A stretch of DNA of 64,000 nt, taken from positions 62,001 to 126,000 of the IMG/VR virus record IMGVR_UViG_3300031787_000016; one strand, 5' to 3'. Under the pieces are notes generated by a model. It was not told where the DNA came from. It made no database searches and saw nothing but the letters and a program-made list of their open reading frames with translations. This document shows, piece after piece, positions 53,785 to 57,510 of the stretch. The translations under genes and the position numbers were made by a program. Each line of letters starts with the position of its first letter. Position 1 is the stretch's first letter. This DNA comes from a virus.

Positions 53785-54549
53785 ATGGCTAAATCAACTG
53801 CATCTGGACTTCTTCTACACCAATTGCTTGCCATCACCGAAGGCGTTAAATCTCGCGTCAGTAAGGCAAAGACTGAAATCTACAAGACAATTCAAAAGCG
53901 AGATTTGTTTGGTGGTTTGAGCAAAACTTATCGCCCCAATGCTGAAGATGGGTATGTGTATCCTCCTGAATCGAAGTTGACTCAAACTAATGTCAAAGAC
54001 CAAGTTGCAGCATTCACTTCGTTATTAACCGAGTTGTTCGACACAATCACAACACTCGACAAAACCAATCAAGCCGCAGTTGGCAACATTGTGGTTAACG
54101 GAGCTACAATCGCCGAGAATGTACCTGTCTCAAGCTTGTTGTTTCTCGAAAAGCAGTTAACTGACATCGTTACATTTTTCGATTCATTACCTGTCCTTGA
54201 CAGCGCAGAAAAGTGGAGTGTTGACCCCAACACTGGTTTGTATGAATCCGAAGTTCGCCGTACCAACAAGACCAAGAAAATCACCGATTGGAAAGTCATT
54301 GAAGGTACGCTGACCGACAAGCACCCTGCTCAAGTTAAAGAGTACAGTCAAGACATTAACGAAGGTGTGTGGGAGCAAATCAGCTACAGTGGTGCAATTT
54401 ATCAGACAACCAAGCAAGCACTCGTCAGTCGCGCTCAGAAGCTTCTAGAGGCTGTTGTAGTGGCAAGGGAAGGTGCAAATGCCATTGAGGTGATTCAATT
54501 CAAGATTGGAAAAGATATAACTAACTATCTGACTCAACCATTGCAATAA
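53785..54549 (+). CDS. DUF7873-like protein
   Basis: A 254-residue protein. TYRPNAEDGYVYPPESKLTQ, FLEKQLTDIVTFFDSLPVLD, DPNTGLYESEVRRTNKTKKI and KHPAQVKEYSQDINEGVWEQ follow the order of a family I know as DUF7873 from phages and actinobacterial elements. Its role is unknown. It has its own promoter and terminator, so it is probably strongly expressed. Confidence 0.6.
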   Translation: MAKSTASGLLLHQLLAITEGVKSRVSKAKTEIYKTIQKRDLFGGLSKTYRPNAEDGYVYPPESKLTQTNVKDQVAAFTSLLTELFDTITTLDKTNQAAVGNIVVNGATIAENVPVSSLLFLEKQLTDIVTFFDSLPVLDSAEKWSVDPNTGLYESEVRRTNKTKKITDWKVIEGTLTDKHPAQVKEYSQDINEGVWEQISYSGAIYQTTKQALVSRAQKLLEAVVVAREGANAIEVIQFKIGKDITNYLTQPLQ

Positions 54550-54560
54550 GAGAGAGAGAG

Positions 54561-54585
54561 AGCGTTCCTTCGGGAGCGCTTTTTT
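54561..54585 (+). terminator. Strong terminator
   Basis: AGCGTTCC / GGAGCGCT 8-bp stem with a TTCG loop, followed by six T residues. Confidence 0.9.
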
Positions 54586-54594
54586 ATATCTGTC

Positions 54595-54641
54595 TTTAGG
54601 TAGATGCGAGGTAGTAAGTTGGTCGAGTATATTAATTAAAG
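54595..54641 (+). promoter_or_regulatory. GATAGATAC-type promoter before the permuted tRNA genes, copy 2
   Basis: TTTAGGTAGATGC, 20 bases, then TATATTAATTAAAG. It starts about 25 bases before the first permuted tRNA and lies directly after the terminator, so the tRNA-like RNAs have their own transcript. Confidence 0.55.
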
Positions 54642-54660
54642 AGCGTAAGTTAAAGCTTAT

Positions 54661-54760
54661 ACAACACTTCTAAACCGCAGTCTTGTTCGTTCGAGCCGAA
54701 CTTCTCCGACTATCGGAGGGTGATGTAACTGGTAAACATCTGGGGTCTAGAGAAGTGGCT
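54661..54760 (+). tRNA. Circularly permuted tRNA-Arg (UCU) candidate
   Basis: The 3' half comes first: anticodon and following bases TCTAA, stem ACCGC, T arm GTTCG-TTCGAGC-CGAAC (54685-54701), acceptor strand TTCTCCG and A. After the linker CTAT the 5' half follows: acceptor strand CGGAGGG (54714-54720, pairs 7 of 7 with two G-U), D arm ATGT/ACAT with GG in its loop, then GGGGT-CT. Joining CT to TCTAA gives a 76-base tRNA with anticodon TCT. Outside the halves CACTTCT (54665-54671) pairs with AGAAGTG (54751-54757). One G-G mismatch lies in the anticodon stem. Confidence 0.65.
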
Positions 54761-54829
54761 CAATCTGAAAGTGAAATTGAAGTTATTGCTCCAAGTTCAT
54801 TTTAAAACCTTCCCTTTTGTATCGACGTT

Positions 54830-54930
54830 TCAAGCTTAATAATTAGCGATGTGAGTTCAATTCTCATTTCTGCCTTATCATGGCAGAATCAGTATAATGG
54901 TAATACGGCTAATATAAGTCTAAAGCTTGA
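54830..54930 (+). tRNA. Circularly permuted tRNA candidate, anticodon unresolved
   Basis: 3' half first: stem TTAGC (54843-54847), T arm GTGAG-TTCAATT-CTCAT (54851-54867), acceptor TTCTGCC (54868-54874). After a seven-base linker that includes the discriminator, the 5' half follows: acceptor GGCAGAA (54882-54888, perfect pairing), D arm with a GG loop, stem GCTAA (54908-54912, perfect with TTAGC). Outer clamp TCAAGCTT (54830-54837) pairs with AAGCTTGA (54923-54930). The join point in the anticodon loop cannot be fixed, so the amino acid is open. Confidence 0.65.
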
Positions 54931-55012
54931 CCACAGGATATTAACAAGGCAAAATCAGGAAGTAAAATATAAGTACTGTACACCTATATGTTTTAGTCGT
55001 ACAAACTAAAAA

Positions 55013-55043
55013 GAACCCTCGCATCGGATATTTGCGGGGGTTC
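55013..55043. terminator. 11-bp hairpin after the tRNA-like genes
   Basis: GAACCCTCGCA and TTGCGGGGGTTC pair over 11 positions with one G-U. The T-rich side lies on the minus strand, so it may be a bidirectional or processing element rather than a simple terminator. Confidence 0.6.
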
Positions 55044-55054
55044 ACTATATGTAC

Positions 55055-55101
55055 CTTAAGATAGATACAATCATCACCACAACCCTCTACACTTGTAAAA
55101 C
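55055..55101 (+). promoter_or_regulatory. GATAGATAC-type promoter, copy 3
   Basis: CTTAAGATAGATAC, 19 bases, then TACACTTGTAAAAC, ending 22 bases before the ATG at 55123. Confidence 0.6.
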
Positions 55102-55122
55102 AAACACAAAACAACTAATCAC

Positions 55123-55746
55123 ATGGCAACAGCTAAAACCAAGTCCGATAACACCGACGTAGTAATTTCCTCCGCAGCAGCAGCACTCGTCAAAGCAACA
55201 GCAAATATTCAAGAAGCATTCAAGTCAGTTGATAGTCTCACCGAAACCGCAGAGAATCTAACTCGCGACATCGCTAACAAGAGAGCTGAAATTGAAGGCT
55301 TGACCGAAGTATATCAGACCAAATACCGTCAGTCTGAAGTTGATTTCAATCTGAAGCTGGCAGAAAAGAAAGATGTGACCGTCAACGAGTACTTGAAGTC
55401 TGTTGGCAAGGAAGCAATTGAATCGGCAGCTTACAAAGCATTGCAGACCGAACTTGTTGCCGTCAAGCAAGAGCGTGATGCTGAAGTCAAAAAGGCAGTT
55501 ACAATCGAAAATAGCCGTTTGACTCGCGATTTTGCCTCCGAGAAAGCACTACTTCAAAGCCAGTTTGAAACGTCTACAGCCAAGCAACTTGCACAAATCG
55601 AATCTCTCACCGAACGTAACGGCGCGCTCAGTAATGAAATCGCCAAGTTGTTCAGAGAAATCGAAGCTCAACGTAACTTGACTGCGGAAGTGGCTAAGGC
55701 TGGCTCTGTTGGCTCTATTAACGTTGGCACACCCAATAACCGCTAG
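55123..55746 (+). CDS. Coiled-coil protein
   Basis: A 207-residue, mostly helical protein (NIQEAFKSVDSLTETAENLT, then SLTERNGALSNEIAKLFREI), likely a long coiled coil. A CAGAAAAGAA copy encodes its LAEKK. It has its own promoter and is probably abundant. No family recognised. Confidence 0.55.
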   Translation: MATAKTKSDNTDVVISSAAAALVKATANIQEAFKSVDSLTETAENLTRDIANKRAEIEGLTEVYQTKYRQSEVDFNLKLAEKKDVTVNEYLKSVGKEAIESAAYKALQTELVAVKQERDAEVKKAVTIENSRLTRDFASEKALLQSQFETSTAKQLAQIESLTERNGALSNEIAKLFREIEAQRNLTAEVAKAGSVGSINVGTPNNR

Positions 55747-56294: not shown

Positions 56295-57008
56295 ATGACA
56301 ATAGGGATATACTACATAACTAATGTAGTCAATGGCAAGTATTATATCGGTTCTAGTCTTCATATTGAACGTAGATTTAAAGAGCATTTAAATGGACTAA
56401 ATAAAAACAAGCACCATAATCGTTCTCTGCAATTCGAGTGGAATAGTTTTGGTCAATCTTCGTTTGTATTCTCGATAGTAGACAAATTATCTTCAGCTAA
56501 CGCAGCTACGGTGTTTTCATTAGAGCAATTTTATTTAGATGCTGTTAAGGATTGGGCTTCGGTTTACAATATATCAAGAGACACTACAAATTGGGTATTA
56601 GGAATAAAATATAAAGACTCAAACTACTACTCTTGGAATAAAGAAAAGAAGGTATTTGTTGTAGCCTACAGAGTTAATGGAATCCAATTGAAATTCGGGT
56701 ATTTTGAAGATGAGGAAGACGCTAAATGTAAAGTAGACTATCTAAAGTCACTTACAAAATTACAACTTATTGAGTACCATAAAAATATTGACCCATGTAA
56801 ACTTACTAGGAAAAATAATAACAACTTGGTAATTATGGGAGAGGCTAGGCGGAGGTCTTTCAAGGGGTATTCTTTTGACAAGAAAAGAAATGTTTGGAGG
56901 GTAAGGTTTCCCGTAAAGGGTAAAACAGCCAACTTTGGAAGTTTTAAGTTTGAGAAAGATGCACAAAAGAAGGTTGAAGAAATTATTTCTAATGGTAGAT
57001 GTAATTAA
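56295..57008 (+). CDS. GIY-YIG homing endonuclease with two AP2-like repeats
   Basis: A 237-residue protein: GIY at 4-6, YIG at 17-19, the catalytic Arg in ERRFKEH (R27), and a conserved Glu in SLEQFYLD. The C-terminal part carries two repeats, YSWNKEKKVFVVAYRVNGIQ followed by LKFGYF, and YSFDKKRNVWRVRFPVKGKT followed by NFGSF, which look like AP2-type DNA-binding domains. It is inserted just before the tmRNA-like gene. Codons are AT-rich. Confidence 0.85.
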   Translation: MTIGIYYITNVVNGKYYIGSSLHIERRFKEHLNGLNKNKHHNRSLQFEWNSFGQSSFVFSIVDKLSSANAATVFSLEQFYLDAVKDWASVYNISRDTTNWVLGIKYKDSNYYSWNKEKKVFVVAYRVNGIQLKFGYFEDEEDAKCKVDYLKSLTKLQLIEYHKNIDPCKLTRKNNNNLVIMGEARRRSFKGYSFDKKRNVWRVRFPVKGKTANFGSFKFEKDAQKKVEEIISNGRCN

Positions 57009-57044
57009 TGGTAGTTGTGTTAGTATATAAGTGTTATTGAGAGT

Positions 57045-57270
57045 TTAGGTACTTCCTTGGCTGGACAAGAGTTCGACTCTCTTGCCTTACACTTCAAGTG
57101 AGGCTAACGGTTTCGACAGGTAAGGAAGCCTAGAACACGCTGGGACTTTACGAGCGACAGCTAAAATAGCGAAAAAATAAACGTCAACAACATCGTTTCT
57201 TTTTCTAGGAAAGCTACCCCTGTAGCCGCCTAGACCACCCGAAAGACAGTCCTAAAAACGCTGTCTTTCT
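57045..57270 (+). ncRNA. ssrA: Circularly permuted tmRNA candidate
   Basis: The acceptor-side half comes first: P2 strand CTTCCTT (57052-57058), T arm AAGAG-TTCGACT-CTCTT (57067-57083) and acceptor GCCTTAC. The linker ACTTCAA follows, then the 5' half: GTGAGGC (57098-57104, pairs with GCCTTAC), TAACGGTTTCGACAGG, and P2 strand AAGGAAG (57122-57128, perfect with CTTCCTT). A tag frame from 57183 gives VNNIVSFSRKATPVAA and a stop at 57231-57233. No CCA is encoded. A 9-bp hairpin GAAAGACAG / CTGTCTTTC ends it. Confidence 0.75.
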
Positions 57271-57288
57271 CTATATCTGGAGATAATT

Positions 57289-57510
57289 ATGAGAACAACT
57301 TGCGGTTTTCGCTTCCAAGGTCACTACGTCTACCGCCAAATATTCCCGAACGGTCGCTACAAAATAATGGTGTGGGTTGCCTCCAATCCCCCAGAAGAAG
57401 AGTCATGTGCTGATGTTGCTTTTTGTGGTGACTCTCATGTAAAATGTATGACTAAATTAAAAGAATGGCTTGAAATCAACAAAGATTGGGTAAACAAAAC
57501 AGATGAGTAA
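57289..57510 (+). CDS. Unknown 73-residue protein
   Basis: ATG at 57289 after CTGGAGATAATT. Beta-rich with several Cys (TCGFRFQGHYVYRQIFPNGR, CADVAFCGDSHVKCM). Function unknown. Overlaps the next gene by 8 bases. Confidence 0.5.
   Translation: MRTTCGFRFQGHYVYRQIFPNGRYKIMVWVASNPPEEESCADVAFCGDSHVKCMTKLKEWLEINKDWVNKTDE

Follow-up and report, generated by a model that had tools for sequence, protein, structure and literature searches.

A candidate family of phage RNAs with two permuted tRNA-like domains encoded next to DUF7873 genes

An RNA with two tRNA-shaped domains downstream of a DUF7873 gene

The window analyzed here is a 64-kb stretch of a 147,778-base virus record whose kin are the Pseudanabaena phages PA-SR01 and Pam2. 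It encodes a conserved structured RNA immediately downstream of a gene for a DUF7873 protein, and the permuted tRNA-like element that a first-pass annotation had recognized at 54661-54760 is one half of this larger non-coding RNA, which contains two tRNA-shaped domains. Sequence comparisons establish the layout of the RNA, the compensatory changes in its helices, its conserved tRNA core and its linkage to DUF7873. We lean towards the view that 54641-55043 of the window is one representative of an RNA family that seems not to have been described before, accompanies DUF7873 and is processed into a ribonucleoprotein carrying two tRNA mimics. The two tRNA-shaped domains lack a conserved anticodon, and the RNA is therefore probably a mimic of tRNA rather than a molecule that decodes. 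The features of the locus are:

53785-54549, + strand: gene for a DUF7873 (PF25283) protein of 254 aa (Pfam, 292.6 bits against a cut-off of 27, E 3.4e-87)
54562-54585, + strand: hairpin GCGTTCC-TTCG-GGAGCGC followed by T6, just 3' of the DUF7873 stop, read from the sequence
54628-54633, + strand: possible -10 hexamer TATATT, from the alignment (TATACT in L003 and Pam2), ahead of a putative RNA start
54641-55043, + strand: conserved structured non-coding RNA with an estimated extent of ~400 nt (alignment of seven phages, RNAalifold)
54641-54644, + strand: GAGC, pairing with GCTC at 54758-54761 and closing domain 1 (RNAalifold)
54646-54659, + strand: small hairpin TAAG...CTTA (RNAalifold)
54665-54757, + strand: permuted tRNA-like domain 1 (layout scan, ARAGORN, arm-by-arm reading)
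54665-54671 with 54751-54757: outer clamp of domain 1, CACTTCT/AGAAGTG, 7 bp
54685-54701: T arm of domain 1, GTTCG-TTCGAGC-CGAAC
54702-54708: 3' acceptor strand of domain 1, TTCTCCG
54709-54713: discriminator and linker of domain 1, ACTAT, 5 nt
54714-54720: 5' acceptor strand of domain 1, CGGAGGG (7/7 pairs, 2 of them G-U)
54723-54739: D arm of domain 1, ATGT/ACAT
54772-54799, + strand: segment B hairpin TGAAATTG...CAAGTTCA containing GAAGTTATTGCTCC (RNAalifold)
54830-54930, + strand: permuted tRNA-like domain 2 (strand-swap test, layout scan, covariance model), with clamp TCAAGCTT/AAGCTTGA and P2 helix ATTAGC/GCTAAT
54851-54867: T arm of domain 2
54868-54874 with 54882-54888: acceptor of domain 2
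54892-54906: D arm of domain 2
54931-54944, + strand: CCACAGGATATTAA, counterpart of the CTTAAACG motif conserved after domain 2 in other phages
55013-55043, + strand: terminal hairpin GAACCCTCGCA-TCGGATATT-TGCGGGGGTTC with a GGATA loop

Domain 1 reads in the order clamp, P2 (at the position of the anticodon stem), T arm, acceptor, linker, acceptor, D arm, P2' and clamp'. Across the family, an RNA normally has two domains of this kind, each with a variable region between the leading anticodon-side strand and the T arm. Thus, the 3' half of a tRNA-like structure indeed precedes its 5' half in this phage, as first proposed, and the paired acceptor, T and D stems and the 7-bp helix clamping the ends are all present within 54665-54757. 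A layout scan of the 64 kb, demanding a T stem of 5/5 pairs, an acceptor of 7/7 and a D arm with GG, matched exactly twice, at 54685-54740 and at 54851-54906; 100 dinucleotide-shuffled windows yielded no match, which places the arrangement far beyond chance. The initial observation was hence real but incomplete: the second match, belonging to domain 2, which starts 72 bases downstream of domain 1, had been missed.

The hairpin at 54562-54585 reads as an intrinsic terminator separating the DUF7873 gene from the RNA; a consensus scan listed neither this terminator nor, on the + strand, the -10 hexamer at 54628-54633. By its conserved adjacency, DUF7873 is a likely partner of the RNA. A structure model of the protein built from 35 sequences (pLDDT 86.2, pTM 0.63) predicts long helices and a long beta hairpin. 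Foldseek searches of PDB and BFVD returned nothing for it at E up to 0.001, and the best Z with VIA, 7.2, is not distinctive; these outcomes do not establish a new fold. Further DUF7873 leads are a copy in Deinobacterium chartae (control) and a plasmid match, H119.

Helices are maintained by compensatory changes in related cyanophages

The stretch from the DUF7873 gene to the next gene was aligned for the window, L003-L006, PA-SR01 (L008) and Pam2 (L009); L002 is identical to the window over this stretch, leaving seven distinct sequences. The same two layout matches recur in each of the seven, and the arrangement is accordingly shared by related phages, where the first-pass annotation had suggested looking for it. 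We then compared the pairs formed by each phage's own strands with those formed under all 5040 permutations of strands between phages. In domain 2, own strands form 52/56 pairs in the clamp (permutation mean 32.7; equalled by 2 permutations), 37/42 in P2 (mean 29.7; equalled by 12), 35/35 in the T stem (mean 24.7; equalled by 4) and 49/49 in the acceptor (mean 30.9; equalled by 2). The D stem of domain 2 shows no covariation among the cyanophages and is uninformative (24/28, with 4320/5040 permutations as good). In domain 1 the T stem retains 35/35 own pairs (equalled by 12 permutations) and the acceptor 49/49 (equalled by 24). Over the whole stretch RNAalifold predicts 91 pairs, 39 of them with two-sided change, including pairs of the 3'-end hairpin, while the GAGC/GCTC closure is without covariation support because it is invariant. 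By these sequence comparisons, helices of the RNA are kept by compensatory changes in the seven cyanophages.

The anticodon is not conserved

The first-pass annotation interpreted domain 1 as a gene for tRNA-Arg(UCU) whose halves are joined in the anticodon loop. When the window element is rotated, ARAGORN can call it Arg(UCU), Leu(UAA), Thr, Ser, CUA (printed as Pyl) or others, and the choice of joining point alone decides which; the anticodon called for the rotated L003 element likewise varies with the join. With the join that yields Arg(UCU), the anticodon stem has one G.G mismatch in the window and is fully paired in L003. These are also the two of the seven cyanophage sequences with an Arg-like domain 1 opened at the anticodon loop. 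L004, L005, L006 and PA-SR01 have, at this locus, a Leu-like domain 1 opened in the variable arm, with a whole anticodon arm but a 9-nt loop, read by ARAGORN as Phe(AAA). Pam2 has a Leu-like form devoid of an anticodon arm, which ARAGORN recognized for none of three loops. Flanking segments remain nearly identical while domain 1 swaps between the Arg-like and Leu-like forms at one locus. We take the labels Arg-, Leu- and Gly-like mainly from the arm sequences. The tRNA annotated as Leu in phage Phendrix begins with the D arm shared by many domain 1 elements.

A decodable anticodon after joining is thus not kept among the seven cyanophage sequences, and it follows that this is not a conserved tRNA-Arg gene; nor does joining in the anticodon loop describe the four relatives opened in the variable arm or the wider family. 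Across 103 elements of wider relatives, what follows the anticodon-stem position is not an anticodon loop but a helix-internal-loop arrangement. Since P2 runs into the body of the RNA through an internal loop, there is no conserved anticodon loop and, hence, probably no decoding. By inspection, the ends carry no canonical bulge-helix-bulge; those of the window form a 3/5-nt internal loop between helices. For the window and L003 only, a spliced Arg(UCU) product is conceivable. Among six records of the phage group, none encodes RtcB and five encode an RNA ligase of the PF09414 family. The corresponding feature in record G000, whose match to the DRB0094-type NCBIfam model falls below the cut-off, is:

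G000:143756-144301: relative of the RNA_ligase family

A gene for a macro-domain protein (DarG-antitoxin-like) lies close upstream of this phage RNA ligase gene (L144 3-383 and 949-2085; G000 ~143-145 kb).

The RNA accompanies DUF7873 across phages and actinobacterial replicons

DUF7873 matches were found in 88 phage records, 12 of which were examined besides PA-SR01 and Pam2. Two strict permuted elements lie directly 3' of DUF7873 in Phendrix, NiceHouse, Mimi, KpLz-2_45 and FBKp24, and the phages with the layout after DUF7873 infect Gordonia, Rhodococcus, Arthrobacter and Klebsiella. Only one strict domain is seen in Ziko, the Vibrio phages D517 and K479 and two Rhizobium phages. In a Microcoleus phage the layout scan finds none and a covariance model finds one ~2 kb downstream, beyond a HEARO RNA; this HEARO RNA, of an inserted element, sits between DUF7873 and the RNA (L149 3944-4153, phage My-WqHQDG). 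Three DUF7873 copies on Nonomuraea and Streptomyces replicons were inspected, and each is accompanied by both domains. No domain was found in Lak-B6, or in L160 even with covariance model R1 (see below). The DUF7873 match stretches in L160 (4001-4750) and L197 (4001-4714) have an in-frame stop, and these are possibly recoded phages.

In IMG/VR, 361 stretches encode DUF7873 relatives, of which 80 were kept. The linkage was counted over 76 loci, with near-duplicates kept and three of 79 left out for having <350 nt downstream (L179, L218, L226). At least one strict element occurs within 900 nt downstream of DUF7873 at 65/76 loci and at least two at 36/76, for 101 matches; equal stretches upstream gave 1 match, antisense 0 and shuffled sequence 0. 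The covariance model of domain 2, R1, was built from 22 sequences, none from cyanophages. Downstream of DUF7873 it matches 82/84 loci at E up to 0.05, and 60/62 that were not used in training, these matches including near relatives of training sequences. R1 failed at two loci, L160 and L218; the downstream sequence of L218 amounts to only 137 nt. The weakest matches (L150, L151, L152 and L227; 34-42 bits) overlap in score with some matches in tRNA arrays without DUF7873 (up to 39.9). In the window, R1 finds domain 2 at 54817-54946 (58.7 bits, E 8.2e-10); domain 1 of the window is not listed at E up to 0.05. An exact 22-nt match in L007 was in unrelated sequence and was dropped as chance, as were matches in L020, L021 and L022, around which there are no permuted elements. 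These sequences place the family in phages from seven or more host groups and on actinobacterial replicons.

Shared anatomy in the wide set

For the strand swaps in the wide set 11 loci were left out (eight near-duplicates along with L214, L166 and L157), as were elements without a recognizable D-loop GG. Here, the pairing of the T, acceptor and D stems is imposed by the scan and is therefore given no weight of its own. In each domain P2 beats 5000/5000 strand swaps, as does the domain 2 clamp, and the pairing of the 5' leader with segment B is reached by 0/5000; the clamp of domain 1 is not significant (reached by 197/5000). The alignment of 22 domain 2 sequences behind R1 has 86.6% of cells paired versus 57.2% on shuffling, with 207 double-sided changes versus 73; its weakest helix is P2, with 60.2% of cells paired. 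In 70 matches to the domain 2 model the tRNA core is nearly invariant: U8, A14, A21, U54 and R57 are present in 100%, C56 in 99%, G19 and A58 in 97%, U55 in 91% and G18 in 90%. Base 73 is U in 78% of the same matches.

Domains were classed by the downstream motif, which is imperfect and leaves some second domains in the domain 1 set; so classed, domain 1 has A73 in 38/57 rows and a Leu-type D arm in 39/57, and domain 2 has U73 in 34/44. G3-U70 is nearly absent (1/57 in domain 1, 0/44 in domain 2). CCA directly follows base 73 in 41/109 distinct elements; the cyanophage elements do not encode it. In a second count, it is seen in 27/55 elements where the ordinary tRNAs of the locus mostly lack CCA and in 12/15 where they have it. 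A GGATA-loop hairpin occurs within 300 nt after domain 2 at 37/81 loci versus 4/80 controls, and a motif related to segment B in 49/81 of the wider set, by a loose pattern run with no control.

Relationship to known RNAs

The permuted, two-piece form of tmRNA (RF04321) is found in alpha-proteobacteria and some cyanobacteria. The phage itself encodes one, and this is the only Rfam match in the window:

56998-57324: permuted tmRNA of the phage, with tag VNNIVSFSRKATPVAA (Rfam RF04321 match at 57030-57233)

A GIY-YIG intron-endonuclease-like gene (56295-57008) lies directly upstream of it. Like this tmRNA, the new RNA has its 3' acceptor piece encoded ahead of the 5' one and separated from it by a short loop, continues the anticodon position as a helix and would probably be opened by tRNA-processing enzymes. 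Unlike it, the new RNA has two tRNA-like domains, a full D stem and a G18G19 loop, lacks a conserved tag frame, has almost no G3-U70 and is neighbored by DUF7873; RF04321 has no match at 54540-55125 up to E 10, and the five Rfam matches in the RNA stretch are at chance level. Segment B was considered as a tmRNA tag and rejected, having no conserved stop and no third-position bias; the five variable sites of its frame in the seven cyanophages are all first or second codon positions. In eight DUF7873 phage loci Rfam detects ordinary tRNAs, one tRNA-Sec, one tmRNA and one HEARO, none of them on the RNA.

A second comparison is with the Y RNA YrlA (RF02553). YrlA is described as combining paired ends with a module of D, T and acceptor arms (PMC8394870), and the tRNA-like module on a stem of paired RNA flanks is likewise present here; in distinction from YrlA, the phage RNA has two modules and often encodes CCA. 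A YrlA/Ro60 assignment was rejected on finding no match to RF02553 at E up to 10 and none to TROVE in G000. The permuted tRNA genes of algae and Thermofilum, which are joined at a bulge-helix-bulge into working tRNAs (Soma 2014, PMC3978253), share the order of 3' half before 5' half and extra end pairing; they differ from the phage elements, which keep no conserved anticodon and are opened at varying points.

GOLLD and ROOL are large structured phage RNAs of unknown function that occur near tRNA genes or arrays; neither has an Rfam match in the window or the eight DUF7873 loci. A group I permuted intron-exon arrangement was rejected, there being only ~70 nt between the domains and no Rfam intron in the window. 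We found no description of the RNA in open-licence papers, Rfam or solved folds; nor did literature searches turn up a phage case of a permuted tRNA gene, in keeping with the first-pass annotation. The available portions of, e.g., PMC10085705, PMC7790460, PMC7824862, PMC9569102, PMC10286775 and PMC9382816 hold no description of it, and PMC9700779 is without relevant terms. In the parts available, PA-SR01 is reported with three tRNAs and Pam2 with four, and the RNA goes unmentioned.

Mechanistic interpretation and alternatives

By analogy with the permuted two-piece tmRNA, host tRNA-processing enzymes would cut the short acceptor loops, with RNase P making the 5' end and 3' trimming or CCA addition the other. 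Both the encoded CCA and the kept elbow hint at opening of the acceptor loop and maturation of the end in this fashion. The product would be a nicked RNA terminating in two tRNA-like acceptors, base 73 being mostly A in domain 1 and mostly U in domain 2; these ends may be charged. With DUF7873 it would probably form a ribonucleoprotein, whose two mimics might act during infection on the translation machinery or on tRNA enzymes. Such an RNA, which pairs two tRNA mimics in one molecule and has one linked DUF, would show that permuted tRNA-like domains are not confined to tmRNA, and makes DUF7873 a testable partner protein. In a more specific and unlikely elaboration, the tagless, two-headed RNA with both ends charged, mostly Leu-like then Gly-like, would hold two ribosomal tRNA sites or two tRNA-binding enzymes at once as a DUF7873 ribonucleoprotein, seizing or silencing translation in the course of infection; were this true, it would join tmRNA and Y RNA as a third class of tRNA mimic among bacterial RNAs.

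The anatomy also permits a reading, possible though rather less than probable, in which the acceptor loops stay uncut and the RNA is a closed tether comparable to YrlA, its domains docking a protein such as PNPase, DUF7873 or a tRNA-modifying enzyme. The paired ends with D, T and acceptor arms, as described for YrlA (PMC8394870), fit such a tether, as do the helices beyond P2, which make stable hairpin-like domains; it has against it the lack of a YrlA match or a Ro60/TROVE gene in the one record searched, G000, and the CCA after base 73, which would be without obvious use if the loop were never opened. The swap of domain 1 between Arg-like and Leu-like forms within nearly identical flanks could instead reflect an arms race, in which anticodon-less mimics soak up a host defense enzyme or toxin acting on tRNA and change domain identity in response. 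Defenses targeting tRNA are known and can be evaded by phage tRNAs (PMC10264068), and a decoy or sponge of this kind is compatible with the processed form that we favor. However, a decoy needs less than two ordered and spaced domains, segment B, internal loops and a terminal hairpin, no candidate target was identified, and the RNA is also present on Streptomyces and Nonomuraea replicons; we consider it improbable.

The original proposal, a permuted tRNA-Arg(UCU) gene whose product would be cut at its clamp, sealed within the anticodon loop and opened at its acceptor, could call on the ligase relative in G000 and on the window and L003 elements, which alone ARAGORN can join to an Arg(UCU) tRNA. 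Against this stand the Leu-like and anticodon-less forms at the same locus, the lack of RtcB in the six records and of a canonical bulge-helix-bulge, and the tandem second domain, which, as in the wider family, has no clear anticodon loop; we regard it as highly improbable. Scarcely credible is that the locus represents degenerate tRNA-gene debris or a DUF7873 leader element with no function in trans: the domains do resemble tRNAs that such phages often carry, but the compensatory changes, the near-invariant tRNA core and the wide linkage to DUF7873 oppose both versions, and the RNA is located after, not before, the DUF7873 gene.

Further permuted tRNA-like elements

Permuted tRNA-like elements also occur in tRNA arrays at loci without DUF7873. 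In L042 (7520-7860), L090 (200-520) and L119 (5700-6070), the arrays show a tRNA-in-tRNA organization of the order A5'-B3'-B5'-A3', with the outer anticodon stem (e.g. TCGTC/GACGA) and the inner one (TAAGG/CCTTA) paired across. The arrays of L090 and L119 contain, in addition, tRNA-like genes whose anticodon loops carry long insertions, where Rfam calls no introns. More elements of the permuted type are found in the tRNA arrays of L046, L083, L086, L114 and L129, the last of which has a repeated AACAGCAAWTTTAAA motif. Finally, the tRNA-Sup-TTA annotated in Klebsiella phage FBKp24 (L151 4009-4088) overlaps domain 2 of the RNA and is probably a miscall; the RNA family may explain doubtful tRNA calls of this kind in such phages.
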